Source: Actinocorallia sp. API 0066 (GTDB taxonomy: Bacteria > Actinomycetota > Actinomycetes > Streptosporangiales > Streptosporangiaceae). From it: 64,000 nucleotides of DNA. Positions 47,653-64,000 of this stretch are shown piece by piece (positions within the stretch are counted from its first letter, which is position 1; every line of letters begins with the position of its first letter). The stretch spans positions 62,001 to 126,000 of the forward strand of contig NZ_JAJLQY010000016.1 of assembly GCF_020991275.1 (NCBI RefSeq), in the 5' to 3' direction. The position numbers and the translations under genes were made by a program. The notes below the pieces were generated by a model. It saw only the letters and a program-made list of their open reading frames with translations, was not told the DNA's origin and searched no databases.

Positions 47653-48305
47653 GTCCGTAGCCCCGTCCTGTTCAGTCGCATCAGCACCCCGGCCCGCCAC
47701 TGGTCGGCGAGTGCCGGTGTGGAGACCATACGCAGGAGTTCGGCGGGGTCGAACTCGCGCGCGTAGCTCGTGCTGAACAGTTCGTTGACGGTGGGGGCGC
47801 GCTCGTCGCGCTCCAGCAGCCGCAGCTCGCCGGAGGTCGGGACGGTGCCGGGCCGCAGCACCCGCAGGTACCAGCCGGTGCGGGCGGTGGTGATCATCTG
47901 CGCGACGGCCTCCTTGCGGCCCGCGCGCAGCCCGAACTTGAAGCAGGGGGAGCGCGGCTGGGAGACCTGCACGCGCGCCTCGCCCCAGGCCCAGACGTCG
48001 CCGATGCGGATCTCGTGCTCGTCGGGCCCGGTGACGCTGACGTTCTCGCCGACCCCGCCGGGGCCGAGGTCGTAGCCCTCGCCGGTCCAGTAGCCGTAGT
48101 GGGCGGCCGGGTAGAGGTAGACGGCCTTGTCGGGGCCGCCGTGGACGGAGAGGTCGGCCTGGCGGTCGCCGTCGAGGCCGAACACGCCGAGGGCGAGCGA
48201 CGGCCGGGTGACGGGCTCCTTGCGGATCGCGCTCAGCACGCGCCGCGGCCCGAGGGGCGCGGGGGTGCCGACGTAGACGCCGCCGACCGTCGAGATCTCG
48301 TTCAC
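47649..48305 (-). CDS. MOSC-domain protein (YiiM type)
   Basis: 218 residues. It carries the MOSC motif GLDGDRQADLSVHGGPDKAVYLYP, GGVGENVSV and the conserved Cys in SQPRSPCFKFG, with the C-terminal 3-alpha region of YiiM-like proteins. MOSC proteins use the Cys with molybdenum cofactor to reduce N-hydroxylated compounds or to handle sulfur. Its place before a TetR and an exporter suggests detoxification. Confidence 0.85.
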   Translation of the reverse strand: MNEISTVGGVYVGTPAPLGPRRVLSAIRKEPVTRPSLALGVFGLDGDRQADLSVHGGPDKAVYLYPAAHYGYWTGEGYDLGPGGVGENVSVTGPDEHEIRIGDVWAWGEARVQVSQPRSPCFKFGLRAGRKEAVAQMITTARTGWYLRVLRPGTVPTSGELRLLERDERAPTVNELFSTSYAREFDPAELLRMVSTPALADQWRAGVLMRLNRTGLRT

Positions 48306-49644: not shown

Positions 49645-49846
49645 GGTGCGGAACCTGGCCAGAACATTTGTCGGACGTTAAGGATCGCAAATTTGCTGTA
49701 GCGGTGGAAACTCACGGGTAACCAGATACGTCGCACTATATAAGCGGTCCCGGCGGACTCGTTTGCGGATCGGGGCCAGATATTTGTCGGCCGGGGCCAT
49801 CTGAGATTCTCGTGGGTGTCCTGCCCGATGCGTGAAAGGCGACCAG

Positions 49847-50857
49847 ATGCGCGCAGGTCCGACCAGGCTTCCGGTGCTCGGTACGGCGAGTGCGCACCTC
49901 ATGGTCCAGTTCGCGGGTGAACTGGGCGTGAGTCGGGAGCGATGTCTCGCCGACACCTGCGTCACCCCCGCGCAGCTCGACGACCCGGCCGCCACCATCC
50001 GGCTCGCCCAGGAGCTGACCATCGCCCGCAACGTCGTGGACGAGCTCGGCTCGCTGCCGGGGCTCGGCTACCGGATCGGCCAGCGGTACCGGCTCACCGC
50101 CTACGGCGCGTGGGGATGGGCCATGCTCTGCTCCCAGACCGCGCGCGAGTCCCTCGCCTTCGCCCGCGACTACATGGACCTCTCCTACGCGCTGTGCGAG
50201 CTCACCATGCGCGACGTGGACGGGCTCGCGCGGATCGACGTCGCCGAGGAGTGGCTGCCCGAGCGGCTCAGCGTGTTCTTCCGGGAGAAGTCCGTGGGCG
50301 CCGTGCTGCGCATGCTGGAGGACATCATCCCCGAACGGGGCTGGCTGAAGGAGGTCAGGCTCGCCGCGCAGGACGGGCCCGCCGCGGACTGGCTGCGCGA
50401 GGCCGTCGGGGTGCCCGTGCGGTGCGGGAAGCCGGGCACCGAGATCGTCGTCTACGGGGAGCTGCTCGACCGGCCGCTGCCGCTCGCCAACAGCCAGGCG
50501 CGGCAGCTCTCGGAGTCGCTGTGCCGGGAGCTGCTCGACAAGCGGCGGGCGCTACTGACCGTGACCGAGAGCGTCCGGCAGTACCTCCTGCAGTGGCTCG
50601 CGGACTCGCCGACGCCCGCCTCGGCCGCCCAGTCGCTCGGCATCGGGCAGCGGACACTGCGCCGCAGGCTCGCCGAGGAGGGCACCTCGTTCCGTGAGTT
50701 GCACGACCAGGTGCGCCGGTCGCTGGCCGTCGAACTGCTCGGGGACGGCGTCCCGGCGGCCCGGGTGGCGCGCCGACTCGGGTACGCGGGACCCGCCGCG
50801 TTCACCCACGCATTTCGCCGCTGGCATGGCGTCGCGCCCAGCGAATTCCTCTCCTGA
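49847..50857 (+). CDS. AraC-family regulator with Arabinose_bd N-terminus
   Basis: 336 residues from ATG 49847 (AAAGG 9 bases upstream; GTG 49832 is possible). The N-terminal domain (SAHLMVQFAGELGVSRERCL, LGYRIGQRYRLTAYGAWGWAML) is of the PF12625 type found in regulators sensing hydrophobic ligands. The C-terminal AraC HTH pair is PASAAQSLGIGQRTLRRRLAEEG and VARRLGYAGPAAFTHAFRRW. It lies directly upstream of the biosynthetic cluster in the same direction and is its best candidate activator. Confidence 0.88.
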   Translation: MRAGPTRLPVLGTASAHLMVQFAGELGVSRERCLADTCVTPAQLDDPAATIRLAQELTIARNVVDELGSLPGLGYRIGQRYRLTAYGAWGWAMLCSQTARESLAFARDYMDLSYALCELTMRDVDGLARIDVAEEWLPERLSVFFREKSVGAVLRMLEDIIPERGWLKEVRLAAQDGPAADWLREAVGVPVRCGKPGTEIVVYGELLDRPLPLANSQARQLSESLCRELLDKRRALLTVTESVRQYLLQWLADSPTPASAAQSLGIGQRTLRRRLAEEGTSFRELHDQVRRSLAVELLGDGVPAARVARRLGYAGPAAFTHAFRRWHGVAPSEFLS

Positions 50858-51086: not shown

Positions 51087-51881
51087 TTGCAGACCTCACC
51101 CGGATACATGCTGTCCAACGCCGACCAGGGGGAGCGGCGCAGGTTGGCGGCCATCGAGGCCGCCTACGACCCGGGCAGCAGGCGGCACCTGACCGCGCTC
51201 GGCGTCGGCCACGGCGCGCGGGTGCTCATCGCCGGCGCCGGCGGCGGCAGCCTCGTGCGGTGGGCGGCCGAGACCGTCGGCCTGACGGGCGAGGTCGTCG
51301 CCGTCGACATCGACCCCCGCTTCGTCGAGCCGCTCGCCGCCCAGTACCCCAACGTCCGCGTCTTCCGGCAGGACATCGTCACCGAGGACCTGCCCGGCGG
51401 CGGCTACGACGCCGCGCACGCCCGCCTCCTGCTCGGCCACCTGCCGCGGCGCGAGGAGGTCGTCGCCAAGCTCGGCGCCGCGCTCCGGCCCGGCGGCGGC
51501 CTGCTGGTCGAGGACTTCGACTTCGGCTCCTACGGGCCCGCCGAGGCCAACGAGGCGGCCGCCAAGGCCATCGCGACGGTCGCCGCGTTCGTCCGCTCGA
51601 TCGGCTTCGACACCTCCTTCGGCCGCCGCCTGCCCGGCGTGATGCGCCGGGCCGGACTGGTCGACGTGGACGCCGAGGGCCTCGTCCTCACCCTGCGCGG
51701 CGCGACGTTCCCGCTGGAGCCGATGTACCGCCAGACGTTCGACAAGCTCCTGCCCGCACTGATCGCGGCCGGTCAGATGACCGAGCAGGAGGCCGCCGAC
51801 GTGCACGCCCGCTTCGACGACCCCGAGCACGACATGTGCACCCAGACGCTCATGTCCGTCTGGGGACGCCGCCCCGCCTGA
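51087..51881 (+). CDS. Class I SAM-dependent methyltransferase
   Basis: 264 residues from TTG 51087, supported by GAGGGGGAAAG 2-12 bases upstream. SAM motif I is VLIAGAGGGSLVRWAAE, the acidic loop VVAVDIDPRF and the post-motif ARLLLGHLPRREEVVAKL, followed by LRPGGGLLVEDFD. The C-terminal half is variable and likely binds the acceptor. As first gene of the cluster it probably tailors the product by O-, N- or C-methylation. Confidence 0.82.
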   Translation: MQTSPGYMLSNADQGERRRLAAIEAAYDPGSRRHLTALGVGHGARVLIAGAGGGSLVRWAAETVGLTGEVVAVDIDPRFVEPLAAQYPNVRVFRQDIVTEDLPGGGYDAAHARLLLGHLPRREEVVAKLGAALRPGGGLLVEDFDFGSYGPAEANEAAAKAIATVAAFVRSIGFDTSFGRRLPGVMRRAGLVDVDAEGLVLTLRGATFPLEPMYRQTFDKLLPALIAAGQMTEQEAADVHARFDDPEHDMCTQTLMSVWGRRPA

Positions 51882-51910
51882 CCGCCCCCCGACCCCTGAG
51901 GAGAGCGATT

Positions 51911-53314
51911 TTGCGCACGCACACCCGAATCCTGGTGATCGGCGGTGGTCCCGCCGGATCGACCGCGGCGACCCTGCTGGCCAAGGAGGGCTTTGAGGTC
52001 ACGCTGCTGGAGGCGGCGACCTTCCCCCGCTACCACATCGGCGAGTCCATCCTGCCGTCCGCGCTGCCGGTCCTGGACCTGCTCGGCGTCCGCGAGAAGA
52101 TCGAGGAGTACGGCTTCGTCCGCAAGGGCGGCGCCTACTTCGAGTGGGGCCCGGAGAACTGGGAGCTGAACTTCAACCACCTCGAAGGCAGCGACACCTA
52201 CTCCTACCAGGTGATCCGCTCGGAGTTCGACAAGCTCCTGCTGGACAACGCCCGCGAGAACGGCGTCGACGTGCACGACGGCATCCGCGTCGCCGAACTC
52301 GGCTTCGACGGCGCCCGCCCCGTCTCCGCCACCTGGACGCGCGGCCGCGACAAGGACGACTCCGGCACCATCACCTTCGACTTCCTCGTGGACGCCTCCG
52401 GCCGCAACGGCGTCATGGCGACCAAGTACCTGAAGAACCGCCAGGTCAACGAGGCGTTCAAGAACATCGCCACCTGGTCGTACTTCCGGAACGTCAAGCC
52501 GCTCGACAAGGGCCCCGAGGGCGCCATCGCGGTCTGCTCCGTCCCGGACGGCTGGTTCTGGGCGATCCCGCTGCACGACGGCACGCACAGCGTCGGCCTC
52601 GTCCGCAACGCCGCGAAGTTCGCCGAGCAGCGGCAGGCCGCGGGCGGCGACCTCGGCAAGGTGTTCTTCGACGCCGTCGAGTCCAGCTCCCGGATCAAGG
52701 ACATGCTGGCCGGCGCCGAATCCGTCGCCGACTTCAAGGCCGAGCAGGACTACTCCTACTCCGCCGACTCCTTCGCCGGGCCCGGCTACGTGCTCGCGGG
52801 CGACGCCGCGTGCTTCCTCGACCCGCTGCTCTCCACCGGCGTCCACCTGGCGACGTTCAGCGGCCTGCTCGCCGGGGCCGGCGTGTCCAGCCTGCTGCGC
52901 GAGGAGCTGACCGAGGAGGAGGCGCTCGGGTTCTACACCCAGGCGTACCGGCAGGCTTACGAGCGGCTGCTCATCCTCGTGTCCTTCTTCTACAAGAGCT
53001 TCAGCCGCCAGTCCCAGTTCTTCGAGGCGCAGAAGCTCACCCGCCGCGAACGGCACATGCTCAACCTCTACGAGTCGTTCCTGTACGTCGTCACCGGCGT
53101 CGAGGACATCGCCGACAGCAAGGACAGCGCGCTGGACGCGGTGGCCCGGCGGATGGCCGAGTCCGGGCACCTGTTCGCCGGGGAGAACGAGGCGCTCGCC
53201 GCGATGCCGACCTCCGAGCGCAACGCCGTCGGCGGCATCTACCTGGTGTTCGAGCCGCGGCTCGGCCTGCGCAAGCGCACCGGCGTCACCGAGCCCCAGC
53301 CGTCCCCGGCCTGA
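51911..53314 (+). CDS. Flavin-dependent halogenase-family enzyme (CmlS/PltA-like)
   Basis: 467 residues from TTG 51911, with GAGGAGAG 5 bases upstream. FAD motif GGGPAG at 11-16; Lys72 in VRKGGAYFEWG fits the halogenase lysine that carries the chloramine; the WxWxIP signature is WFWAIP at 215-220; GDAACFLDPLLSTG follows near 297. The C-terminal extension (SFFYKSFSRQSQFFEAQKL) resembles enzymes that act on carrier-protein-bound acyl chains. Halogenation is the first guess, but family members can also be monooxygenases. Confidence 0.8.
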   Translation: MRTHTRILVIGGGPAGSTAATLLAKEGFEVTLLEAATFPRYHIGESILPSALPVLDLLGVREKIEEYGFVRKGGAYFEWGPENWELNFNHLEGSDTYSYQVIRSEFDKLLLDNARENGVDVHDGIRVAELGFDGARPVSATWTRGRDKDDSGTITFDFLVDASGRNGVMATKYLKNRQVNEAFKNIATWSYFRNVKPLDKGPEGAIAVCSVPDGWFWAIPLHDGTHSVGLVRNAAKFAEQRQAAGGDLGKVFFDAVESSSRIKDMLAGAESVADFKAEQDYSYSADSFAGPGYVLAGDAACFLDPLLSTGVHLATFSGLLAGAGVSSLLREELTEEEALGFYTQAYRQAYERLLILVSFFYKSFSRQSQFFEAQKLTRRERHMLNLYESFLYVVTGVEDIADSKDSALDAVARRMAESGHLFAGENEALAAMPTSERNAVGGIYLVFEPRLGLRKRTGVTEPQPSPA

Positions 53315-53345
53315 GAAGGAACAACAAGGAACAAGAAGGAATCCC

Positions 53346-54014
53346 ATGACCGCAGAGAACGCCGAACCGACCGACCCGTACTGCCTGCCCGACGCGGACG
53401 CCGACCGGCTGCTGGCCGCCGCGCCGTGGAAGCGGTTCGCGGTCGTCGGCGACAGCCTCGCCGAGGGGCTCGGCGAGGCGACCCCGGGCTACCGGACCCT
53501 GCCGTGGGCGGACCGGACGCGCGAGGCGCTGGCCCGGGTCCAGCCCGACCTGGAGTACCTCAACATCGGGCTGCGCGACCTCATCGCGTCCGAGGTGCGC
53601 GAGCAGCAACTGGAGCGGGCCCTGGAGTTCGGGCCCGACCTCGCCGCCGTCGTCTGCGGCGGCAACGACCTGCTGCGGCCCGTCGTCGACCTGGACGCCG
53701 TCGAAGGCGAACTCGACACGATCATCGGCTCGCTCGCCGCGACCGGCACCACCGTCGTCACCTACTGCCTGATGGACATCTGCGCCGCCTTCCCGGAGCT
53801 GGCGGCGCTCAGCCCGAAGATGCAGGAGCTCAACGCCAGGGTGCGCGGCGTGTCCGCCCGGCACGGCGCCCTCGTCGTCGACATGTGGGCGCACCCCGCG
53901 TGCGCCGAGAAGTCGATGTACAGCTCCGACCTCCTGCACTCCTCGATGCGCGGACACGCGCTGCTCGCCGCCGAGACGCTGAAGCGCCTCGGCAGCCACC
54001 TCGCCGACGCCTGA
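53346..54014 (+). CDS. SGNH/GDSL hydrolase
   Basis: 222 residues. The catalytic Ser is in VVGDSLAEGLGE, block III is CGGNDLLR and the Asp-His pair is SDLLHSSMRGHA. Block II (NIGLRD) is slightly unusual. No signal peptide, so it acts in the cytoplasm, possibly as a thioesterase, esterase or acyltransferase of the pathway. It has an AAGAAGGA ribosome site 31 bases after the halogenase-like gene. Confidence 0.82.
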   Translation: MTAENAEPTDPYCLPDADADRLLAAAPWKRFAVVGDSLAEGLGEATPGYRTLPWADRTREALARVQPDLEYLNIGLRDLIASEVREQQLERALEFGPDLAAVVCGGNDLLRPVVDLDAVEGELDTIIGSLAATGTTVVTYCLMDICAAFPELAALSPKMQELNARVRGVSARHGALVVDMWAHPACAEKSMYSSDLLHSSMRGHALLAAETLKRLGSHLADA

Positions 54015-54025
54015 AAGGACCAGCC

Positions 54026-54700
54026 ATGGCCGCCACCGCCCCCTCCACGGTCAGCAAGAACTGGATCACGAACGGACGCCTCGCCAAGAACTGGGACCGC
54101 GGCGTCAAGAGCTACCCCGTCGCGATGGCCTACGGGGTCGTCGTCTTCGGCACCGACAACCGCAAGATGTACAAGCACATGGCGGAGGTCGGAAAGCTGC
54201 CGGACGGCACGTCGGTGCTGGACGTGCCGTCCGGCGGCGGGGTCGTGCTCCTCGGCCTCAAGCCCGAGAACCGGATCACCTACACCGCCGCCGACATCTC
54301 CCCGGTGATGCTGGAGCGGGTCCGCGACGAGGCCACCCGCCGCGGCCTCGACTACGTCTCCACCCAGGAGGCCGACGCCGGGAACCTCCCGTTCGAGGAC
54401 GCCACGTTCGACGTCGTCGTCTCCTACAGCGGCCTGCACTGCGTGCCGGACCCGGCCAAGGCCGTCGCGGAGATCGCCCGCGTCGTCAAGCCCGGCGGGA
54501 CGGTCCGCGGCAGCGTCGTCGTCCGCAAGGCCGGGTTCGTGCCCGACCGGTTCATCGACCTGTGGGTGAAGCTGAACATCCTCGACGTGGTCACCCCGGT
54601 GGACACGGTGTTCGGCTGGTTCGAGGACGCCGGCCTGACCCGGGTCGCCTCCTCGACCTCGGGCGCCGTCCTGTACTTCGAGTACACCAAGGCGCAGTGA
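54026..54700 (+). CDS. Class I SAM-dependent methyltransferase (UbiE/Methyltransf_11 type)
   Basis: 224 residues from ATG 54026 (GAAAGGA upstream). SAM motif I is VLDVPSGGGVVLLGL, acidic DIS in YTAADISPVMLERVRDEA, motif II DVVVSYSGLHCVPDP and post II VVKPGGTVRGSVV. Its stop overlaps the ligase start by one base (TGATG), beginning the fully coupled stretch of the cluster. Confidence 0.83.
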   Translation: MAATAPSTVSKNWITNGRLAKNWDRGVKSYPVAMAYGVVVFGTDNRKMYKHMAEVGKLPDGTSVLDVPSGGGVVLLGLKPENRITYTAADISPVMLERVRDEATRRGLDYVSTQEADAGNLPFEDATFDVVVSYSGLHCVPDPAKAVAEIARVVKPGGTVRGSVVVRKAGFVPDRFIDLWVKLNILDVVTPVDTVFGWFEDAGLTRVASSTSGAVLYFEYTKAQ

Positions 54701-57189
54701 TGCTGCTGCTCGACTGGCTCGACGACCCGGCGGCCGACCGGGGCATCCACTTCGCCGGCGACGGCGGTAGCTGGACGTTCCGGTCGTACGCCGAGCTCGC
54801 CGGGGACGTGCGCCGGGTGGCCGCGCTGCTGCGCGCGTCCGGCGCGGCCCCCGGCGAGCCGGTGTCGCTCATGCTCGGCGACTCCCGGTCCTTCATCGCC
54901 GGGTTCGTCGGTTCGGTGCTGGCCGGGGCGACGCCGTCCCCGGTCGCCGCGCCCCTGACGTTCCGGGGCAAGGACGCCTACGTCGAGCACGTCTCGAACG
55001 TCCTGGACGTGGCGGCGCCCTCGGTCGTCCTCACCGACGACTTCCTGGGCGAGACCACCGCCCAGGCCGCGCCCGGCGTGCGCGCGGTGCGGCTCGACTG
55101 GGACGCGCTGCCGGACGGCGACGTGCCGCGCGGCCCCGTCGCGGAGACGGCGCTGCTCCAGTTCACCTCGGGGTCCAGCGGCAGGCCCAAGGGCGTCCGG
55201 GTCTCCCCGGCCAACCTCGACCACAACCTGTCCTCGATCATCGCGTGGGGCGGGCTGCACCGGGACGACGTGTTCGCGTCCTGGCTGCCGCTGCACCACG
55301 ACATGGGCCTCGTCGGGGCGCTGCTGTGCCCGCTGGTCAGGCAGTGCGACCTGCTCCTGATGACGCCCGACCAGTTCGTCCGCGACCCGCTGCGCTGGGT
55401 GTCCTGCCTCGGCCAGCGCGGCGCCACCAAGACGACGGCGCCGAGCTTCGGCTACTCCTACGCGGCCCGCCGGGTGAAGCCCGCGCAGCTTGAGGGCATG
55501 GACTTCTCCGCGCTGAGGATGGCGATCCTCGGGGCCGAGCGGATCGACCCGGCCGGGGTCGCTGCGTTCACGGCGCTGACCGCGCCGCACGGGTTCGACC
55601 CCGCCTACCTCGTCGCCGCCTACGGCATGGCCGAGGCGACCCTCGCCGTCACCGGGGTCCGGCCCGGCGACGGCTCCACCATCATCCGGCTCGCCGACAC
55701 CGGCCTGCGCACCGGCGAACCCGTCAAGGTCGCCGAACGCGCCGTGCTCGGCACCGACGTGGTGGAGGGCACCGGCTGGCTCACCGGCTGCGGCTCGCCG
55801 CTCGCCGGGACGGCCGTCCGGATCGTGGACGAGGACGGCGAGCCCGTCCCGGACGGGTCGTTCGGCGAGATCGTCGTGACCGGCGCGTCGGTCGCCCAGG
55901 GCTACCGGACCGCCTCCCCGACCAGCGCCACCGCGTTCGGCCCCGACGGCCTGCGCACCGGCGACTCGGGCTTCCTGCTCGACGGCGACCTGTACGTCGT
56001 CGGCAGGATCGGCGACAGCCTCAAGGTCCGCGGCCGCAAGGTCCACGCCGAGGACCTCGAACAGCAGCTCGCCGCCGCGACCGGACTGCGCGCCGACCGG
56101 TGCGCCGTCGTCGCCGGGGCCGTCGGCGACCTCGACGCGGTCGTCGCGCTGGTCGAGGACACCGGCACCGCGTGGCTCGACAAGGTCATCCCGATGCTGC
56201 GCGCCGCGACCGGCCCGAACGTCGTGCTCGCGGTGTTCCACGGCCGCCGCGGCTGCGTCGAGCGGACCTCCAGCGGCAAGCCGCGCCGCCGCGTCATCTG
56301 GGAGAACCTGCTCAGCGGCGCGTCGGCCGCGAAGCTCTGCCACACCAACTGGACCGACCTGACCACCGCGTTCCCGCCCTGGCCCGGCGCCCGCGACGTG
56401 CTGCCCAAGCTCGACCACTACCCCGGCTGCCTGGGCTGCGGCGCCGCCAACGAGCAGGGCCTCGCCCTGGACGTCAGGTGGACCGGCACCGAGGGCGTGT
56501 GCGTGCACGTCCCGCCCGAGCACGTCCAGGGCGGGCCCGGCATCGCGCACGGCGGCCACCTCGCCTCACTCGTCGACGAGGTGACGGCGTTGGTCGCCTG
56601 CCAGTACGCGGGCGAGCCGACCATGACCCGCAGAACCGAGATCGACTACCGCGCGCCGGTGCCGATCGGCCGTCCGATGCGGATGCGCGCGTTCGTCGTC
56701 GACGCGGGCAAGCGCCGCGTCGTCGTCAGGCTGGAGGCGACGCCCGAGGGCGCCGACGAGACCCTCCTGTTCGAGGCCCGCGTGGTGTGCGTGCGGGTGC
56801 CGCGGGTGCGCTGGACGGGCACCCACGCCGAGCAGCGCGACGCCCTCGCCAACCTCGACTTCGCGGGCGGCGACGCCTCGACGTTCCTGCGCTGGCAGCT
56901 CGACGGCGGACTCCAGCAGTTCTACCGGCCCGACCGGCTCGCCGCGCCCGTCCGGGTCAGGCTCGTCATCACCGACGCCGAGCCCGGCACCTGGCAGCTC
57001 GCCGCCACCGCCGACGGGCTCACCGCGACCGTCGCGCCCGGCCCCGACGAACCCGCCGACGCCGTCTACACCGGCACCTTCGCCGACTGGTACGGCTACC
57101 TGCGCGGCGGCGACGGCGGAACCGTCACCGGCGCCGCCGACCTGCTGCGCGGCCTGACCGAAGCGTTCGATTTCGGAGGACAAGCATGA
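54700..57189 (+). CDS. Fatty-acyl-AMP ligase fused to hotdog thioesterase and SCP2-like domains
   Basis: 829 residues. Residues 1-575 are an adenylating ligase: P-loop LLQFTSGSSGRPKG (about 152-165) and SWLPLHHDMGLVG, a hallmark of fatty-acyl-AMP ligases that load acyl carrier proteins rather than CoA. Residues about 575-700 form a PaaI-type hotdog domain (GCGAANEQGLALDV, GIAHGGHLASLVDEV). Residues about 725-829 look like an SCP2/sterol-carrier fold. The probable role is to activate a fatty acid for the carrier encoded at 58157 and to edit or hold the acyl group. Confidence 0.8.
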   Translation: MLLLDWLDDPAADRGIHFAGDGGSWTFRSYAELAGDVRRVAALLRASGAAPGEPVSLMLGDSRSFIAGFVGSVLAGATPSPVAAPLTFRGKDAYVEHVSNVLDVAAPSVVLTDDFLGETTAQAAPGVRAVRLDWDALPDGDVPRGPVAETALLQFTSGSSGRPKGVRVSPANLDHNLSSIIAWGGLHRDDVFASWLPLHHDMGLVGALLCPLVRQCDLLLMTPDQFVRDPLRWVSCLGQRGATKTTAPSFGYSYAARRVKPAQLEGMDFSALRMAILGAERIDPAGVAAFTALTAPHGFDPAYLVAAYGMAEATLAVTGVRPGDGSTIIRLADTGLRTGEPVKVAERAVLGTDVVEGTGWLTGCGSPLAGTAVRIVDEDGEPVPDGSFGEIVVTGASVAQGYRTASPTSATAFGPDGLRTGDSGFLLDGDLYVVGRIGDSLKVRGRKVHAEDLEQQLAAATGLRADRCAVVAGAVGDLDAVVALVEDTGTAWLDKVIPMLRAATGPNVVLAVFHGRRGCVERTSSGKPRRRVIWENLLSGASAAKLCHTNWTDLTTAFPPWPGARDVLPKLDHYPGCLGCGAANEQGLALDVRWTGTEGVCVHVPPEHVQGGPGIAHGGHLASLVDEVTALVACQYAGEPTMTRRTEIDYRAPVPIGRPMRMRAFVVDAGKRRVVVRLEATPEGADETLLFEARVVCVRVPRVRWTGTHAEQRDALANLDFAGGDASTFLRWQLDGGLQQFYRPDRLAAPVRVRLVITDAEPGTWQLAATADGLTATVAPGPDEPADAVYTGTFADWYGYLRGGDGGTVTGAADLLRGLTEAFDFGGQA

Positions 57190-58160
57190 CCGTGCTCGAG
57201 GAACTCCCCGACATCACCGAATCGCCCGACGCCAAACCGTCCGGGAACCTGCCCACGTCCAAGGACCTCTACTACCGCTGGGAACGCCAGCAGTGGAGCG
57301 TCGCCGCCCTGGACCTCACCAAGGACCAGGAGACCTGGGGGACGCTGCGCGCCTTCTACCGGACCGAACTCCTCAACGCGCTCACCGAGCTCGAGGTCGG
57401 CGAGGTCACCGTGGTGGAGACGCTCAGCTCCCTCGTGGACAAGGCGCCGACCGACGACGACCGCATCTACCTGTCCACCCAGCTCGCCGACGAGGGCAGG
57501 CACGTCAGGTTCTTCCAGACGTACCTGCGCGAGGCCGCCGGGATCAGCGGCGAGGGCCTGGCCGACTCGGCCGACTACACCAACCACTTCGCGCCCGAAC
57601 TGCGCCGCGTCACCGGCGCCGTCTGGGCCAAGGGCGACCGCGACAGCTGGTACGAGGCGCTCGTCTACTACCACCTCGTCACCGAGGGCGTCCTGGCCGC
57701 GACCGCGCTGCGCACCACCCGGCAGCTCGCCAAGCGGCTGCCGCTGCCCGCGCTGGTCGAGGGCCTGACGAACGTCACCCGCGACGAGTCAAGGCACGTC
57801 GCGTTCGGCATGATCGCCGCCCGCGACGGCGTCGCCGCCGGATACGCCGAGCCCGTCCGCCGCGCCTACCTGCACGGGCTGGAGCTGGGCGCGCGCGTCC
57901 TGGTCGGGCCGCTGCGCAAGCAGGCCGTCCCCGCCGTGAAGACGGCGCTGGTCTTCCGCGCCGCGCAGCTCCGGGGCGGGTTCGAGATCGCCCGCGACCG
58001 CGCGGTCCGGCAGCTCGCCCACATCGGGCTGCCCGACGCCGTCGCGGACGCCGCCGAGGTCTGGGACACCGCGCTGGAGCGCGCCCTCGACGCCTACGAG
58101 GAGCACTGGAACACGCCGCACCCGGTCCGGGCCGCGGGCAGCCTTAAGGAGAGCGCATGA
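57186..58160 (+). CDS. R2-like diiron oxidase/oxygenase (R2lox-like)
   Basis: 324 residues of the ribonucleotide-reductase R2-like ferritin superfamily. RWERQQWSVAALDLTKD resembles R2lox proteins. Metal ligands appear as Glu70 (or 73), Glu103 and His106 (ADEGRH), Glu167 (TEG), Glu201 and His204 (DESRH). It is too short for an RNR subunit and has no radical-transfer tail. A role in desaturating or hydroxylating a carrier-bound acyl chain is an inference from its place between the ligase and the carrier gene. Confidence 0.8.
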   Translation: MTVLEELPDITESPDAKPSGNLPTSKDLYYRWERQQWSVAALDLTKDQETWGTLRAFYRTELLNALTELEVGEVTVVETLSSLVDKAPTDDDRIYLSTQLADEGRHVRFFQTYLREAAGISGEGLADSADYTNHFAPELRRVTGAVWAKGDRDSWYEALVYYHLVTEGVLAATALRTTRQLAKRLPLPALVEGLTNVTRDESRHVAFGMIAARDGVAAGYAEPVRRAYLHGLELGARVLVGPLRKQAVPAVKTALVFRAAQLRGGFEIARDRAVRQLAHIGLPDAVADAAEVWDTALERALDAYEEHWNTPHPVRAAGSLKESA

Positions 58161-58411
58161 GCAGCGAGGAGATCCTCACCGGCGTCCGCCGGATCATCGG
58201 CGAGATGTGCCCGCTGGGCGCCCGCGACGTCGCCCCCGCCGACCGGATCATGGAGGACCTCGGATACGACTCCATGGCCGTCGTGGAACTCGCCCTCGTG
58301 CTGGAGGCCGAGTTCGCGCTGGAGCCGATCGACGAGGAGCAGGCCATCGACCTCGTCACCGTCGAGGACGTGGCCGAGCTCGTCGGCCGGATGGTGTCGG
58401 CGCGGGCATGA
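58157..58411 (+). CDS. Acyl carrier protein 1
   Basis: 84 residues, overlapping both neighbours by 4 bases. The phosphopantetheine site is Ser39 in LGYDSMAVVELALVLEAEF, and the surface is acidic as usual. It lies just downstream of the ligase and R2-like enzyme and directly before the transglutaminase-like gene, so it is the probable acyl donor carrier. Confidence 0.9.
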   Translation: MSSEEILTGVRRIIGEMCPLGARDVAPADRIMEDLGYDSMAVVELALVLEAEFALEPIDEEQAIDLVTVEDVAELVGRMVSARA

Positions 58412-59421
58412 GCGTGCTCACCGGGACCCCGCCCCCGGCACTGCGCGACGGCTGGCTCGCCGCGCTCGCCGACCTGGTGCCCGTCGCCGACGGGTACCGG
58501 GACGAGGTCGTCGGCCGCGGCGAGGCGCTCGACCTGCTGCGCTGCGGCGACGCCCTGCTCGACGACCTCGTCGCGCACGGGCTGCCCTGCTCGCCGGACG
58601 GCAGGTTCGACCGCTACGACCTGTTCAACCTCGCGCTGTACTCCGGCTCGGGCAGGTCCGCGCCGGAGACCGGGATCCGGTTCGCGCTGCGCTGGATGGG
58701 CCGGGAACCCGACACGTGGTTCACCGACAAGAGCTGGACGATCTCCGTCGAACTCGCCTGCCCGCGCGCCGGAGGCTGCGGGGCCGACCCGTGGTGGAAG
58801 GCGGCCCGGCCACTGCCCGAGGCGTTCGGCGGGACCGTCCACACCCTCCTGCCGGACGACCCGGGCACCGCCGACCTCGACACGCCGGGCTTCACCGCCC
58901 GGCTCACCGCGCGCGGCGAGCGGCGCGAACTCCGCTCGCCGGTGCTGCGCGAGATCTGCGCCGAGTACGACGCCGCGCGCTGGGTGCGGCTGCCCGTCGA
59001 ACTCCAGGCCAGACCCGAACTCGTGCTGCCGCACGGGATCGCGCCGTGCATCTCGGTCAGCCTCGACCTGGCCGCCAAGTGCCGCGCCGCCGGATACCGG
59101 GCGCGGACCCGGCGCGGCTGGATCCTCGGCATGCTCGACCTCGCGCACGCCTGGCTGGAGGTCGTGGACGACGACGGGCTGACCAAGGTCGTCGACCCGG
59201 TGTTCGGGCTGCTGTCCGCGCACGCCGACGCGCCCCACCCGTCGTTCCGGGCCGCCTGCTCCGGCTCCCGCTTCAACCGCCTGCTGCCGTCCGCGCACGA
59301 GGCCGACGAGCCGCTGTTCCGGCACGGCTGCGCCGGCGGCGAGCACACCCCCAAGACCCGCACCACAGTCCGCACCGCGCGCCCCGACGGACCCGCGGAC
59401 CACGGGAAGGAGACCCCATGA
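58408..59421 (+). CDS. Transglutaminase-like (papain-fold) enzyme
   Basis: 337 residues. The C-terminal half shows the transglutaminase-like core: Cys214 in APCISVSLDLAAKCRAAGYR, His248 in LAHAWLEVV and Asp263 in VVDPVFG, with normal triad spacing (34 and 15). The N-terminal 190 residues match nothing I know. AdmF in andrimid biosynthesis is a transglutaminase homologue that joins an acyl-S-carrier to an aminoacyl-S-carrier. Flanked by two carrier genes, this protein may do the same. Confidence 0.72.
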   Translation: MSVLTGTPPPALRDGWLAALADLVPVADGYRDEVVGRGEALDLLRCGDALLDDLVAHGLPCSPDGRFDRYDLFNLALYSGSGRSAPETGIRFALRWMGREPDTWFTDKSWTISVELACPRAGGCGADPWWKAARPLPEAFGGTVHTLLPDDPGTADLDTPGFTARLTARGERRELRSPVLREICAEYDAARWVRLPVELQARPELVLPHGIAPCISVSLDLAAKCRAAGYRARTRRGWILGMLDLAHAWLEVVDDDGLTKVVDPVFGLLSAHADAPHPSFRAACSGSRFNRLLPSAHEADEPLFRHGCAGGEHTPKTRTTVRTARPDGPADHGKETP

Positions 59422-60308
59422 CCGCGACAGTGCTCGACTCCGCGGAACGGCTCAAGGACATCCTCGACCGGCTGGTCGCCAAGTCCGAGGCCGACTACTA
59501 CAACCCGTACCAGCTCTTCCAGTGGCCCGACACGCTGCCGCAGGAGCAGTACTGGATGTCGCCCGAACTGATGTCGGTGCACGGCACCGAGGTCGGCGCG
59601 GAACTCACCGAGGAACAGCTGCACAAGCTCAGCAAGTGGGAGAGCGTCAACTTCTACAGCCTGAACGTGCACGGCATCCGGGAGCTCATCACCGAGGTCA
59701 TCGCGCGTATCCACACCAAAGAGTTCAAGCTCACCTCGGAGTACTTCCACCACATCATCGGCGAAGAGAACGAACACATGTGGTTCTTCGCCAGGTTCTG
59801 CAACCAGTACGGCGGCAAGATCTACCCGGACCTGACGTTCAAGTTCGACCAGGCGTCCACCGACGGGCCCGCCGCCCACTTCCTGGTGTTCGCCCGCCTT
59901 CTCCTGTTCGAGGAGATCGTCGACTTCTTCAACAAGCGGATGGGCGAGGACGAGCGGCTCGACCCGACCATCCGCAAGGTCAACGCCATCCACCACCAGG
60001 ACGAGTCACGACACGTCGCGTTCGGCCGGCAGATCGTCTCCCTGCTGTGGAAGGACCTCGCCGCCAAGTCCGACGAGTCCGAGCTGGAGGCCGTCCGCGC
60101 CTACCTCAAGGCGTACCTGCGGCGCTCGCTCGAATCGCTCGTCAACCCCGCCGCGTTCCGCGACGCGGGCATCCCCGAGCCGTACAAGGCGCGCAACCGC
60201 GTGCTCGCCGACCCCGCGCACGCCGACCTCGACCGGGCGATCCTCAAGCGCTCGGTGAAGTTCCTCGTCGCCGAAGGCATCCTCCTCACCGAAAGCATCG
60301 ATGCGTGA
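59418..60308 (+). CDS. AurF/CmlI-type diiron N-oxygenase
   Basis: 296 residues. Ligand motifs: Glu117-x-x-His120 (GEENEH), Glu165/166 (LFEEIVDF), and His192...Glu196-x-x-His199 (HHQDESRH). The extra histidine four residues before the last Glu is the seventh ligand that marks AurF and CmlI, enzymes that oxidise arylamines to nitro groups. This suggests oxidation of an amine, but family members also hydroxylate carbon. It has its own GGAAGGAGA ribosome site. Confidence 0.83.
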   Translation: MTATVLDSAERLKDILDRLVAKSEADYYNPYQLFQWPDTLPQEQYWMSPELMSVHGTEVGAELTEEQLHKLSKWESVNFYSLNVHGIRELITEVIARIHTKEFKLTSEYFHHIIGEENEHMWFFARFCNQYGGKIYPDLTFKFDQASTDGPAAHFLVFARLLLFEEIVDFFNKRMGEDERLDPTIRKVNAIHHQDESRHVAFGRQIVSLLWKDLAAKSDESELEAVRAYLKAYLRRSLESLVNPAAFRDAGIPEPYKARNRVLADPAHADLDRAILKRSVKFLVAEGILLTESIDA

Positions 60309-60556
60309 TGACTCAGAGCGCCGTCGATTTCATCATCGACTACCTCCTGGCCAAGCGGCCCGACCTGACGTCGATCGACCTCGACCTCGACCTCATCGAG
60401 AACCGGATCCTCGACTCGCTCGGCTTCGTCAACTTCCTCTACGTCGTCGAGGAGCACACCGGGACCGAGATCTCCCTCGACGACGTCACCCCCGAGGACT
60501 TCCGCACCGTCCGCTCGATCGCGAAGAGGTTCTTTGATGGCGCGGACGTCGGCTGA
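60308..60556 (+). CDS. Acyl carrier protein 2 (aminoacyl carrier)
   Basis: 82 residues; ATG 60308 shares its A with the preceding TGA. The modified Ser37 is in NRILDSLGFVNFLYVVEE, clearly different from carrier 1. It overlaps the amino-acid:carrier-protein ligase gene by 20 bases, so it is the likely amino-acid acceptor. Confidence 0.9.
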   Translation: MTQSAVDFIIDYLLAKRPDLTSIDLDLDLIENRILDSLGFVNFLYVVEEHTGTEISLDDVTPEDFRTVRSIAKRFFDGADVG

Positions 60557-61376
60557 CCCCGCGGCGCGGGCCACCGGAGGGCTGGCGACCCTCGGCCCGG
60601 ACGCCGTCGCGCTGCGCACCGCGCTGGAGGGCATGTTCACGTCCTGGGCCGCCGACTGCGGGGCCGAGGCCCGGCTGTACCCGCCGCTCATGCGGGTCGC
60701 GGACCTGCACCGGATCGACTACTTCCAGAACTTCCCGCACCTGGCCATCGCGGGCTCCGGCCTGCGCGCGGAGGCGCTGAAGACCCAGGGGCGGGAACCG
60801 GCCGTCGCCGCCGCCGACCTGGAGGACGCCGCCTACGCGCTCCCGTCCGCCGCCTGCTACAACATCTACTTCGACCGCGCGGGCACCGTGCTCGGAGACG
60901 AGCCGGAGAAGGTGACGACCGTCGCGACGTGCTTCCGGCGCGAGGACCACTACGACGGGCTGCGGCGGCTGCTCGGGTTCTCCATGCGGGAGATCGTCTG
61001 CGTCGGCTCGCGGGACGCCGTCCTGGACCACCTCGGGTCGTTCAAGAAGCAGCTCATCGCCTACTTCGCCGACATCGGTCTGCCCATCGAGGTGGAGAAG
61101 GCGAGCGACCCGTTCTTCGACGCGGACGGGGCGCGGGCCCTCATGTCGCAGCTCTTCCCCACCAAGGAGGAGTTCGTCTTCGACGGGTCCCTGGCGATCG
61201 CGTCCGTCAACTTCCACCGGAACTTCTTCGGTGAGCGCTGCGACATCCGCCTCCCCGACGGTTCGCCCGCCTTCTCCGGGTGTGTCGCCTTCGGGATCGA
61301 GCGGTGGCTGAGCGCGTTGACAACGCAGTTCGACCTCGACCCGGCCGACCTGCGCACCCATGTCGCCCGCCCCTGA
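60537..61376 (+). CDS. Amino acid:[carrier protein] ligase (SerRS-like)
   Basis: 279 residues, a class II aminoacyl-tRNA-synthetase-like catalytic core without a tRNA-binding domain. Motif 2 is TCFRRED, motif 3 FGIERWL. Zinc ligands are probably Cys107, Glu152 and Cys249, a spacing close to that of methanogen-type SerRS and the Bradyrhizobium aa:CP ligases, which load glycine or alanine onto phosphopantetheine of a carrier protein. The overlap with carrier 2 supports that pairing. The amino acid cannot be told from sequence. Confidence 0.85.
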   Translation: MARTSADPAARATGGLATLGPDAVALRTALEGMFTSWAADCGAEARLYPPLMRVADLHRIDYFQNFPHLAIAGSGLRAEALKTQGREPAVAAADLEDAAYALPSAACYNIYFDRAGTVLGDEPEKVTTVATCFRREDHYDGLRRLLGFSMREIVCVGSRDAVLDHLGSFKKQLIAYFADIGLPIEVEKASDPFFDADGARALMSQLFPTKEEFVFDGSLAIASVNFHRNFFGERCDIRLPDGSPAFSGCVAFGIERWLSALTTQFDLDPADLRTHVARP

Positions 61377-62370
61377 CCGGCTCCCCGTCCTGCGGCTCGC
61401 GGTCGCCGACCAGTCCGTCGAGGTCTGGCTCGGCGCCCCGCCGCACTACCGCCCCGCCCCGGCCGTCCCCCAGGCCGCCCCGGCCCCGGACGACCGGGGC
61501 GGTCCGCCCGCCCGCGCGCCGTCGCCCCGCGCCGTCCACGGGCCCGTCCTGGACGACGGGTCCGCGCTGAACCGGGGGCTCGCGCTGGACTACGGGTCCG
61601 CGCTCGACCACCTGTTCGTGCACGGCAGGGCCGTGCACCCGGGTGGGCGGGCGGTACGGACGCGGAGGGGGGAGGAGCTCGCCGCTCCGCCCTGCGTCGC
61701 GGAGCTGGCGGAGGCCGGGGGGATCGGGGGCGCCGGGGCGTGGTGGGAGCTGCTGCCACGCGAGGAGGTGCGGCGGCTCGCGCGGGTCGCCGACCCGGAG
61801 GCCAGGGCGCGGGCCGCGCTGGCGCACGCCGTCGTCAGGCTGCTGCTCGGCGAGCGGCTCGGCGCGCCGCCCGAGACGCTGCGGTTCGCCAGGACGGCGG
61901 GCGGCAGGCCGTTCCTCCCGGACGCCGCGTGGGACTTCAGCCTGTCCTCCACGCCGGGGCTCGTCTGCGTCGCGCTGGTGCGGGGCGGCCGGGTCGGCGT
62001 GGACGTGCAGCGGTTCCGGAAGGTGTCCAAGGCCGACCGCATCGCCGAACGGCTGTTCAGCGAGCAGGACCGCAAGACGCTCGCCGGAGCGGCCGGACAG
62101 GAACGCGTCGCCGCGTGGTTCGCCGCCTGGACGCGGGTCGAGGCGCGCGTCAAGGCCGCGGGGACCGGGCTGTTCGGCCCGCCCCCACCGCCCGCCCCGA
62201 CCGCGCGGCTCCCCGTGCCGCCGGGCTACGCGGGCAGCATCGCAGTCCGCCCAGCCGCTCCCGTCTCACGGGCACAGCCCGGGGGCGCCCCGACGAAGTC
62301 GGGCTCGCAAAGCGCCCTCGGGCCCAAACGAACACAGGCTGGGGATGAGGGAGAGGCGTTGGATGAGTGA
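61360..62370 (+). CDS. Sfp-type 4'-phosphopantetheinyl transferase
   Basis: 336 residues. The core is in the last half: FSLSSTPGLVCVAL, GVDVQRF (Mg ligands) and WTRVEARVKAAGTGL, matching the WxxKEAxxK motif, with Arg/Val-Glu variation. A Pro-rich linker (about residues 30-70) and a long Pro/Gly-rich tail after residue 270 flank it. It should convert both carrier proteins to holo forms. It overlaps both neighbours. Confidence 0.85.
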   Translation: MSPAPDRLPVLRLAVADQSVEVWLGAPPHYRPAPAVPQAAPAPDDRGGPPARAPSPRAVHGPVLDDGSALNRGLALDYGSALDHLFVHGRAVHPGGRAVRTRRGEELAAPPCVAELAEAGGIGGAGAWWELLPREEVRRLARVADPEARARAALAHAVVRLLLGERLGAPPETLRFARTAGGRPFLPDAAWDFSLSSTPGLVCVALVRGGRVGVDVQRFRKVSKADRIAERLFSEQDRKTLAGAAGQERVAAWFAAWTRVEARVKAAGTGLFGPPPPPAPTARLPVPPGYAGSIAVRPAAPVSRAQPGGAPTKSGSQSALGPKRTQAGDEGEALDE

Positions 62371-63754
62371 CTTTGTGGTGGTCGGGGCGGGTACGGCGGG
62401 GTGTGTGGTGGCGGCGGGGTTGAGCGCGGCCGGGGCGAGCGTCACGCTGCTGGAGGCCGGGCCGCCCGACCGGCGGCCCGAGGTGCGGGTGCCCGCCGCG
62501 TTCCCCCGGCTCTTCGGAAGCGAGTACGACTGGGCGCACGAGACCGTGCCGCAGCCGGGGCTCGACGGGCGGGCGCTGTACTGGCCGCGCGGGCGCACGC
62601 TCGGCGGGTCGTCGGCCGTCAACGCGCAGATCTGGACGCGCGGGCACCACGCCGACTACGACGACTGGGACATTCCCGGCTGGACGCACAAGGAGCTGGC
62701 GCCGCTGTTCGAGCGGGCCGAGCGGGCGGTGCGGATCGGGCCGCTGCGCACCCCGCACCCCAGCACCGCCGACTTCCTCGCGGCGTGCGCCGACTCGGGC
62801 CTTCCGCCGCTCGCGGACGGTGAGGGGTACGGGGCCGTCCAGGTGACCCAGGACCGGGGGCGGCGCTGGTCGAGCGCTGACGCGTACCTGCGGCCCGCCT
62901 TGGAGCGGCCGGGACTGACCGTCGTCACCGGGGCCGAGGCCGAGTGGGTCGTGCTGGAGGGCGGGCGCGCCGTCGGCGTCGCCTACCGGGACTCGGGCGG
63001 CGCGGCGCGGGTGGCGCGGGCTTCGCGTGAGGTGGTGCTCGCGGCGGGCGCGATCGGAAGCCCCGCGCTGCTGCTGCGGTCGGGGTTCGGCGACCCCGCC
63101 GAGGGGGCGGCGTTCCCGCTGCCCGACGTCGGACGGAACCTCCAGGACCACCTGATGGCGCCGCTCGTGTTCGACGCGGGGGAGCGGGCGGAGCGGGTAC
63201 GGCCGTCCTCGAACAACGCGGAGGCACTGGCCTTCCTTCGGACGCCGGGAGCCGACGCGCCCGACATCGAGTTCCTGTGGATGCCGGTGCCGTTCCTTGA
63301 CCACGGGCGCGGCACGCTCGGCACAGGCTGCACGCTCGGCGTTGTGCTGCTGCGGCCGGAGAGCCGGGGGCGGATCACGCTGGACGACGGGCGTCCGGTG
63401 ATCGACCCCGGATACCTGTCCGCGCCCGCTGACGTCGCCGCGCTGACGGCCGGGGTGGAGGCCGCGCACAGGCTGCTCGCGCGGCTCGCGGACTGGACGG
63501 GCGCGCCGCTGACGCCCGTCGCCGCCTCGTCCTCGCCCGCCGCGCTGCGGGCCTCGGCGCAGACGCTCTACCACCCCGTCGGGACCTGCCGGATCGGCTC
63601 CGTCGTCGACGAACGGCTGCGGGTGCGGGGGGCGGCGGGGCTGCGCGTCGCCGACGTGTCGGTCTGCCCGCTCATCCCGCGCGCGCACACGCAGGCCGCC
63701 GCTTACGTCATCGGTGAGCGAGCGGTTGACCTGATCCTTGAGGAGGGGCCATGA
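62363..63754 (+). CDS. GMC-family FAD oxidoreductase
   Basis: 463 residues, somewhat short for the family (usually 500-550). FAD motif VVVGAGTAGCVVAAGLS, GMC signature 1 WPRGRTLGGSSAVNAQIW and the catalytic His in YHPVGTCRIG. The second catalytic position, usually within GNTNAP, reads RAHTQAA, so the active-site pair differs from choline-dehydrogenase types. It should oxidise an alcohol to an aldehyde, which the next enzyme could transaminate. Confidence 0.87.
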   Translation: MSDFVVVGAGTAGCVVAAGLSAAGASVTLLEAGPPDRRPEVRVPAAFPRLFGSEYDWAHETVPQPGLDGRALYWPRGRTLGGSSAVNAQIWTRGHHADYDDWDIPGWTHKELAPLFERAERAVRIGPLRTPHPSTADFLAACADSGLPPLADGEGYGAVQVTQDRGRRWSSADAYLRPALERPGLTVVTGAEAEWVVLEGGRAVGVAYRDSGGAARVARASREVVLAAGAIGSPALLLRSGFGDPAEGAAFPLPDVGRNLQDHLMAPLVFDAGERAERVRPSSNNAEALAFLRTPGADAPDIEFLWMPVPFLDHGRGTLGTGCTLGVVLLRPESRGRITLDDGRPVIDPGYLSAPADVAALTAGVEAAHRLLARLADWTGAPLTPVAASSSPAALRASAQTLYHPVGTCRIGSVVDERLRVRGAAGLRVADVSVCPLIPRAHTQAAAYVIGERAVDLILEEGP

Positions 63755-64000
63755 CCGACCGGGACGACGTGCTCAAACTGTACGAAAGGCATATCAGTAC
63801 CGGGGCGGCGCGGATGGCCGCGCAGGTCGGGCTGCCCGTGGAGGCGCGCGCGGAGGGGGCGACGGTCTGGGACACCTCGGGTCGGGCTTATCTGGACTGC
63901 GGGGGGTACGGGGTTTTTCTGACGGGGCACCGGCATCCGGCGATCGTCGCCGCTCTGCACGCGCAGTTGGACCGGATGCCGCTTTCCACCCGGACGTTCC
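63751..64000 (+). CDS. Class III aminotransferase, 3' end beyond window
   Basis: The first 83 residues, from ATG 63751 overlapping the GMC stop (ATGA) with GAGGAGGGG upstream. RAYLDCGGYGVFLTGHRHPA is the N-terminal motif of PLP-dependent class III (ornithine/GABA-type) aminotransferases. The PLP lysine lies outside the window. It would add or remove an amino group at an aldehyde, possibly the one made by the GMC enzyme. Confidence 0.82.
   Translation, partial: MTDRDDVLKLYERHISTGAARMAAQVGLPVEARAEGATVWDTSGRAYLDCGGYGVFLTGHRHPAIVAALHAQLDRMPLSTRTF

Follow-up and report, generated by a model that had tools for sequence, protein, structure and literature searches.

In this work, a cluster of 14 plus-strand genes (51087-64968) was analyzed in a 64,000-nucleotide stretch of DNA from Actinocorallia sp. 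API 0066, hereafter called the window, which corresponds to bases 62001-126000 of a contig of 169,021 bases (C8) in a draft genome of 7.0 Mb and 44 contigs. The last gene extends beyond the window and was completed from the contig sequence. We hypothesize that the cluster makes a small N-oxygenated amide via a two-branch, carrier-tethered route, and we hold this overall reading with about even confidence. One part of it, the oxygenation of nitrogen on a carrier-tethered unit, is well supported and in our judgment quite probable. The architecture of the cluster, the protein families, their catalytic residues and the conserved linkage of the genes can be seen directly in the sequence.

The DI2-ACP2-aaCP cassette

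The center of the cluster consists of DI2, an AurF-type diiron N-oxygenase (59418-60308, +; PF11583, 113 bits), ACP2, an acyl carrier protein (ACP) homolog and candidate aminoacyl carrier (60308-60556, +; PF00550, 21.4 bits), whose gene overlaps that of DI2 by 1 base, and aaCP, an amino acid:[carrier protein] ligase (60537-61376, +; NF005479). A scan of contigs from 84,980 species with a DI2 alignment gave 208 confirmed relatives, of which the best 80 loci were read. The neighborhood counts refer to matches within 6 kb of DI2 in these 80 loci. Loci are designated by L and a number; L040-L044, which duplicate L063 and L061, were excluded from trees and counts. Less than 9 kb was available on one side in 21 of the 80 stretches, namely in 3 of the 9 loci with the transglutaminase-like gene TG and in 18 of the 71 others. 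The cassette partners aaCP and ACP2 were present near DI2 in 79 and 78 of the 80 loci, respectively, and because of this linkage in nearly every locus, DI2 can be tied to the ACP2-bound unit. Other neighbors were an LCM-type methyltransferase (PF04072; 64 loci), an AcpS-type transferase (59) and a KASIII-like gene (29), and, more rarely, TG (9) and a nitronate monooxygenase (NMO; 4). The LCM enzyme occurred in none of the four NMO-bearing loci. He and Ryan are said to have described in 2021 carrier-bound glycine nitronates whose partner enzyme is an O-methyltransferase or a nitronate monooxygenase. The cassette fits this published bifurcation, since its partners are of the same two kinds. Their findings on glycine-derived nitronates are paraphrased in PMC9967187 and PMC11035981.

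The residues H192-x3-E196-x2-H199 of DI2 and further Glu and His residues were invariant (7/7). Among solved structures, aaCP matched 3mey (expectation value, E, 2.7e-27) and 4h2w (E 1.3e-26), which represent Bradyrhizobium and Agrobacterium enzymes of this ligase family. It keeps their Cys-Glu-Cys site, presumably a zinc site, as Cys107-Glu136-Cys249 in 86/86 aligned rows, and it differs from them in its length (279 vs. 346 residues in the matched chains), in its score, which lies below the NCBIfam equivalog cut-off (125 vs. 357 bits), and in its position within a biosynthetic cluster. The best NCBIfam match of ACP2 was AmcB (37 vs. a cut-off of 80), and the cispentacin lead given by this nearest NCBIfam carrier was pursued and yielded nothing. 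In actinobacteria, the exact order DI2-aaCP-AcpS-carrier-LCM methyltransferase-KASIII was seen within 6 kb in 24 of the 80 loci, among L064-L134 (e.g., L108:10001-14197), with no product named for any of them.

Transglutaminase-like enzyme and its clade

The candidate amide-forming enzyme is TG (58408-59421, +), a transglutaminase-like protein with the triad Cys214-His247-Asp263, and it is the only one of the 14 gene products that does not pass a Pfam cut-off. In all nine TG-bearing loci among the best 80, TG-DI2-ACP2-aaCP have the same order and strand, and in the DI2 tree (94 rows) the 11 TG-linked rows form one clade with support of 100/100. Seven members of this clade have the full order DI1-ACP1-TG-DI2-ACP2-aaCP: the window, L056 (Solihabitans), L059 (Lentzea), L060 (uncultured), L061 and L063 (Actinomadura) and L062 (Kineosporia); an acyl-AMP (adenosine monophosphate) ligase was seen in six of the seven, the exception being L060. 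The four remaining members, L037, L055, L057 and L058, carry TG without DI1; of these, L037 alone is annotated. At E <= 1e-20, DI1 was found in this genome only among 120 related genomes including itself, and because of this confinement the cluster is considered rare and probably horizontally spread.

The triad was conserved in 10/10 close relatives and in 22/23 aligned rows, where the exception is the fragmentary match of L049, a locus with TG and without DI2. The structural model of TG had a predicted local distance difference test score (pLDDT) of 88.8, and its only Foldseek matches below E 0.001 were three chains of 3isr, a transglutaminase-like cysteine protease. Weaker matches (E 0.025 or worse) included arylamine N-acyltransferases and the geldanamycin amide synthase. 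AdmF of the andrimid pathway is reportedly a transglutaminase-like enzyme that forms amides with partners of the polyketide synthase (PKS) and nonribosomal peptide synthetase (NRPS) kind, and TG shares with this description the Cys-His-Asp triad and the expected amide between two carrier-bound units, in a cluster without such partners.

A separate group with both TG and NMO was formed by L038, L045, L046 and L173 (100/97); L173 represents five genomes of its genus with near-identical best scores, and the surroundings were read for L173 alone. On the linear plasmid of Streptomyces NBC_00335 (L037:2252-17746), type II PKS-like, pabB and class IV aminotransferase genes stand beside TG-DI2-ACP2-aaCP, the part that is also present in L055, L057 and L058. 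The L037 set may serve to attach an aryl polyene to the N-oxygenated unit that is proposed below for the window. A more distant TG relative (31%) is located on a Mycobacterium intracellulare plasmid (L039:7555-14907), where the neighbors are annotated as ACP, hydrolase, acyl-CoA (coenzyme A) dehydrogenase, adenylation protein, carrier and chlorinating enzyme.

R2lox-like oxidase and the acyl branch

The second carrier, ACP1 (58157-58411, +; PF00550, 31.4 bits; DSM serine motif), is preceded by DI1, a dinuclear-metal oxidase (57186-58160, +), which in turn follows an acyl-AMP ligase to which a 4HBT hotdog domain and additional C-terminal sequence are fused (54700-57189, +; PF00501, 175 bits; PF03061, 44 bits). 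The best NCBIfam matches of the ligase were of the FAAL type and below cut-off, and in L056 a hotdog-SCP2 protein is encoded separately. The DI1 profile had R2lox as its best match among structures (E 6e-19). The R2lox of G. kaustophilus has, according to PMC6060897, the metal ligands E69, E102, H105, E167, E202 and H205 and the cross-linking residues Val72 and Tyr162. DI1 resembles it in the six ligands (E73, E103, H106, E167, E201 and H204) and in the cross-link positions V76 and Y162, all of which are kept in the 7/7 full clusters, and in its nearest solved structure, 7qbp (template-modeling score, TM, 0.68; model pLDDT 90.2). It differs from R2lox in Leu175, which stands where R2lox has the cavity residue Tyr175, in its place between the acyl-AMP ligase and ACP1 genes, and in its score of 84 bits against an NCBIfam R2lox cut-off of 194; because of the latter, DI1 is named R2lox-like. 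In L047, Asp replaces E73, and a distant row (L052) lacks both Val and Tyr. The function of R2lox was given as unknown in 2018 (PMC6060897) and 2014 (PMC4118035), and a desaturase role is proposed in the latter.

Stand-alone relatives of DI1 were found in 26 further genomes of 396. The 14 of them that were compared (L220-L233) all keep the same eight residues and have Gln at the Tyr175 place, and no ligase, carrier or TG match lay within ~1.5 kb of them, in stretches some of which end at contig ends. As many as four such stand-alone matches were seen in one genome, and the hosts are actinobacteria with genomes of 1.6-4.4 Mb.

Two genes at the end of the cluster encode a GMC oxidoreductase (62363-63754, +; PF00732, PF05199) and a class III aminotransferase (63751-64968, +, passing the window end at 64000; PF00202, 306 bits on L008:15751-16965). 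In the window, L056 and L059, GMC lies immediately ahead of the aminotransferase; in L060 and L063 the aminotransferase is adjoined by a zinc alcohol dehydrogenase, and L061 has the aminotransferase and a P450 in the locus. Since one alcohol oxidizer is thus swapped for an unrelated one across clusters, the arrangement suggests a route from an alcohol via an aldehyde to an amine.

Halogenase, methyltransferases and hydrolase

Upstream of the ligase lie genes for MT1, an S-adenosylmethionine (SAM) methyltransferase (51087-51881, +; TTG start; PF13649; 69% relative in L063), Hal, a member of the CmlS/RadH-like flavin-dependent halogenase family (51911-53314, +; TTG start; PF04820, 128 bits), an SGNH/GDSL hydrolase as the candidate release enzyme (53346-54014, +; PF13472, 75.6 bits) and MT2, a second SAM methyltransferase (54026-54700, +; PF08241). 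Downstream of aaCP, the phosphopantetheinyl transferase (PPTase; 61360-62370, +; PF01648, 39 bits) is 56-120 residues longer than four relatives of 216-280 residues (L055-L057, L037), and its start is uncertain.

Hal resembles CmlS/RadH-type halogenases in its flavin adenine dinucleotide motif (GxGxxG), a catalytic-type lysine (Lys72) and WxWxIP, all conserved in 7/7; the lysine and WxWxIP are flavin-halogenase motifs. Its nearest solved structure was 8gu0 (RadH), with 3i3l (CmlS) within the first four. It differs from CmlS in scoring below the equivalog cut-off (287 vs. 900 bits) and in belonging to a subgroup linked to the DI2 cassette: in a tree of 16 rows, the six DI2-linked rows including the window group together (94/98), while the L101 protein (42%, 8.5 kb from DI2) falls outside this group and nine unlinked rows are placed elsewhere. 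Because such linkage could be an artifact of DI2-based searching, Hal relatives were also sought independently of DI2 in 394 and 392 genomes (some shared) and in plasmids, and the surroundings of all 17 relatives of at least 47% identity were read; relatives of 40-44% and 41 lower plasmid records were left out. This small test gave one positive, the sole relative above 59% (66%, L213), which has a DI2 cassette at a distance of 1.3 kb. L213:8812-18699 and L103:4940-15666, with a halogenase beside the DI2 cassette and AONS-like and AMP-ligase-like genes, represent another cluster type. Two Hal relatives are found on cyanobacterial plasmids near large synthase genes and without DI2 (L234:8980-10455, 50%; L235:8980-10461, 49%).

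Methyltransferases of differing families were seen at five of the seven full clusters: the window and L063 have MT1/MT2, L056 has MT2, and L061 and L062 have PF04672, which in L061 is fused to SGNH. MT2 relatives were found in L063 (68%), L056 (56%) and, near DI2, in L090 (45%). Both MT1 and MT2 belong to other families than the LCM type seen in 64 of the 80 loci. Each of the six other full clusters (L056, L059-L063) has an SGNH relative, which in L062 lies on the opposite strand. Moreover, Hal, SGNH and MT2 co-occur with the core in L056 and L063.

Cluster boundaries and upstream genes

The preliminary description of this DNA, made from the letters alone, had listed 14 same-strand genes with ten overlapping junctions and no PKS or NRPS module. 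All 14 genes exist, and 10 of the 13 junctions do overlap, seven by 1 or 4 bases and three by 8-20 bases depending on the choice of start; between MT1, Hal, SGNH and MT2 there are short gaps (11-31 bases). At E <= 0.001, none of the 50 ketosynthase and none of the 43 condensation-domain matches of the genome lies on the contig, so that a cluster of the enteromycin/akazaoxime NRPS-PKS type is not indicated. Modules just beyond base 64000 were looked for as well; after the aminotransferase the next protein-like reading frame (L008:17166-18200) is on the opposite strand, and the idea that the genes are accessory to a PKS or NRPS was ruled out, as there is no such module on the contig and the downstream frame runs the other way. 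The claim of a pathway that does without modular synthases, uses two free-standing carriers and plausibly yields an amide is supported. Neither tRNA genes nor Rfam matches at the gathering threshold were found in the window (1-64000).

The extent given at that time, 51087-64000, is probably too short upstream, where an exporter, a MOSC gene and regulators had not been listed. These are an MFS exporter (45600-47003, -; PF07690, 178 bits), a YiiM-like MOSC-domain protein (47649-48305, -; PF03473, 100 bits; PF03475, 28.6 bits), a PucR-family regulator (48433-49644, -; PF13556) and an AraC-family regulator (49838-50857, +; PF12625, PF12833). All four have relatives at the Actinomadura rudentiformis cluster: MFS (62%; L063/L041), MOSC (67%; L063), PucR (51%) and AraC (49%; both L040). 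Therefore the cluster probably reaches upstream to 45600 as a unit of ~18 genes. MFS relatives also occur at L061 (A. fibrosa, 45%) and L062 (43%), and a MOSC relative (62%) at L061.

The cysteine of the MOSC motif PR[ST]PC is kept in 3/3. Relatives of MOSC or of the molybdopterin oxidoreductase of L059 (E <= 1e-8) were found at 5/9 TG loci vs. 0/71 others, a hypergeometric probability of 5e-6 for loci that are not fully independent. Outside the 80, the MOSC gene of the window lies 11 kb from DI2, and L037 has a molybdopterin enzyme. MOSC/YiiM proteins and related molybdenum enzymes reduce N-hydroxylated compounds; together with this property, the linkage indicates a product with an N-O bond, and MOSC is a candidate N-O reductase for self-protection.

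Proposed pathway and alternatives

We infer the substrates, the sequence of steps, the direction in which the amide is formed, the level of oxidation and the product as follows. In the first branch, aaCP would load an amino acid, most likely glycine, on ACP2, and DI2 would oxidize its amine there, most likely as far as an oxime or a nitronate. In the second branch, the acyl-AMP ligase would load a carboxylic acid on ACP1, DI1 would hydroxylate or desaturate in a two-electron oxidation, GMC would convert an alcohol to an aldehyde, and the aminotransferase would convert this to an amine. The cysteine of TG would accept the acyl group from one carrier, and the enzyme would pass this group to the amine on the other carrier. 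The ACP2-bound unit is favored as the acyl donor because TG co-occurs elsewhere with NMO, where a nitronate is presumably formed and the nitrogen not acylated; the ACP2-bound oxime or nitronate would then give HON=CH-CO-NH-R or its O-methyl nitronate. MT1 and MT2 may methylate, Hal may halogenate the nitronate end and SGNH may release the product, with PPTase arming the carriers, MFS exporting the product and MOSC reducing N-O product that has leaked. That the oxidation reaches an oxime or a nitronate, and that the ACP2-bound unit is the donor, we hold to be about as likely as not. A bolder version appears rather doubtful. In it, two activities that the literature consulted does not describe would be at work, that of the R2lox-like oxidase on an ACP-bound acyl chain and that of the flavin halogenase on the carbon nucleophile of a carrier-bound nitronate. 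TG would then link a nitronoacetyl unit, halogenated and O-methylated, with an acyl unit that bears an amine, and the products would form a new class of reactive amides from which a MOSC-type molybdenum enzyme protects the producer by N-O reduction.

Several observations weigh against the proposed pathway. TG is under the Transglut_core cut-off of Pfam (20.6 vs. 23 bits), and its similarity to 3isr (best E 2.3e-7, TM 0.37-0.39) is that of a distant fold match. In the DI2 tree, the TG loci that are linked to NMO lie far from the group of the window. Neither LCM nor NMO relatives were found in the window or in the other TG-clade loci, a result that for L037 refers to NMO only, and the two kinds of partner are not strictly exclusive: in L072 another O-methyltransferase adjoins NMO, and on a Tistrella plasmid (L196) an oxygenase, a carrier-sized gene, a ligase, NMO and a methyltransferase are annotated in a row. 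A short contig, L047:176-7723, carries the ligase, DI1, ACP1, TG, ACP2, aaCP, MFS and SGNH without DI2, so that TG must there accept an unoxidized aminoacyl carrier, and the locus is read more easily as acyl transfer onto the glycyl amine. No aminotransferase match was found in L062, and no methyltransferase was seen in L059 and L060, where not every gene was scanned. The support of the Hal group is just under the starred level of the tool, and most Hal relatives are unlinked, since 16 of them (48-56%) have no DI2 cassette in their surroundings. Finally, L038 holds xanthine-dehydrogenase-type molybdenum genes, and molybdenum enzymes are therefore not confined to the TG clade.

Some of these points would be explained by a hydroxamate route, to which we give a lesser though appreciable chance. 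Here DI2 would stop at N-hydroxyglycyl-ACP2 and TG would acylate that nitrogen from ACP1, giving an N-acyl-N-hydroxyglycine that is O-methylated and released. This is the ordinary direction for carrier-bound acyl transfer, and it would account for L047, which keeps TG, ACP2 and aaCP without DI2, and for LCM methyltransferase and NMO not being found in the TG clade; MOSC/YiiM-type proteins act on N-hydroxylated compounds. However, DI2 relatives elsewhere pair with NMO, some of them also with TG, and the aminotransferase would be left without a role and the halogenase without an obvious carbon nucleophile. It is less likely still that TG makes a plain acyl-glycine from the two carriers and that the substrate of DI2 is the amine that the aminotransferase introduces, or the product after release. 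To judge from L047, the core may function in the absence of DI2, and an acyl-amino acid was also the product predicted earlier, but the linkage of DI2 to aaCP and ACP2 holds also in loci that lack DI1, ACP1 and TG.

The company of NMO with some DI2 relatives also brings to mind a nitrite or reactive-nitrogen donor pathway, in which nitrite from oxidized glycine would serve to build an N-N bond or a nitro group in the second branch. A title cited in PMC12154687 reports glycine nitronate denitrification. We regard this pathway as very improbable, because no NMO relative was detected in the window or in the ten other TG-clade loci, one of which (L058) is cut short on one side. Hardly credible is a chance neighborhood of two or more unrelated operons. 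The gaps that set MT1, Hal, SGNH and MT2 apart from the overlapping rest would fit it, but two other clusters also combine Hal, SGNH and MT2 with the core, SGNH is present at all six other full clusters, and the regulators, MOSC and MFS recur at A. rudentiformis.

Relation to known pathways and significance

By comparing the proposed carrier-tethered route with known systems, a likeness is seen to glycine-derived nitronate pathways (enteromycin carboxamide; akazaoxime/A-76356), which also combine a diiron oxygenase, a dedicated carrier, an amino-acid-activating enzyme and methyltransferases; for the oxygenases the likeness is one of description only. The akazaoxime cluster, according to PMC9967187, contains a diiron oxygenase and a nitronate O-methyltransferase and uses NRPS and PKS modules, whereas loading here would be by a class II-synthetase-like ligase. 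When the akazaoxime oxygenase was sought in the genus of L068, matches were found in 64/160 genomes, of which 14 in 10 genomes were strong, and among nine surroundings compared (gene lists for four) none was clearly the NRPS-PKS cluster. The largimycins, whose oxime is formed by the oxidoreductase LrgO according to PMC13200230, and a Nocardia diazo pathway with different chemistry (PMC12154687) were set aside, and PMC11205464 and PMC11253843 gave no further information about the enzymes considered here.

Two statements of the preliminary description change in this light. Of its two diiron enzymes, DI2 is of the AurF type as stated, and the R2lox-like DI1 has a metal centre that could be Mn/Fe. 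Furthermore, the set had been said to match no known pathway, which no longer holds, as DI2-ACP2-aaCP is a widespread cassette whose partners elsewhere agree with published glycine-nitronate logic. The gene kinds are thus known, and their combination was not recognized in the open-access literature searched, mostly at the level of titles and abstracts.

If the proposal is true, the cluster would form an amide with no assembly-line modules and would hold the two halves on small carriers of their own, and because the two carriers are separate, every step would be assayable separately. The DI2 cassette, with its many relatives, is a handle for genome mining. From the linkage of the Hal subgroup to an N-oxygenation cassette, a class of substrates new to flavin halogenases is predicted, and from that of MOSC and molybdopterin enzymes, a self-protection mechanism. 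The context of DI1 would place an R2lox-like oxidase in a defined metabolic spot, between an acyl-AMP ligase and an ACP, where its function becomes open to direct testing, and if, as in the bolder version, it acts on an ACP-bound acyl chain, the relatives of R2lox would gain a physiological reaction.

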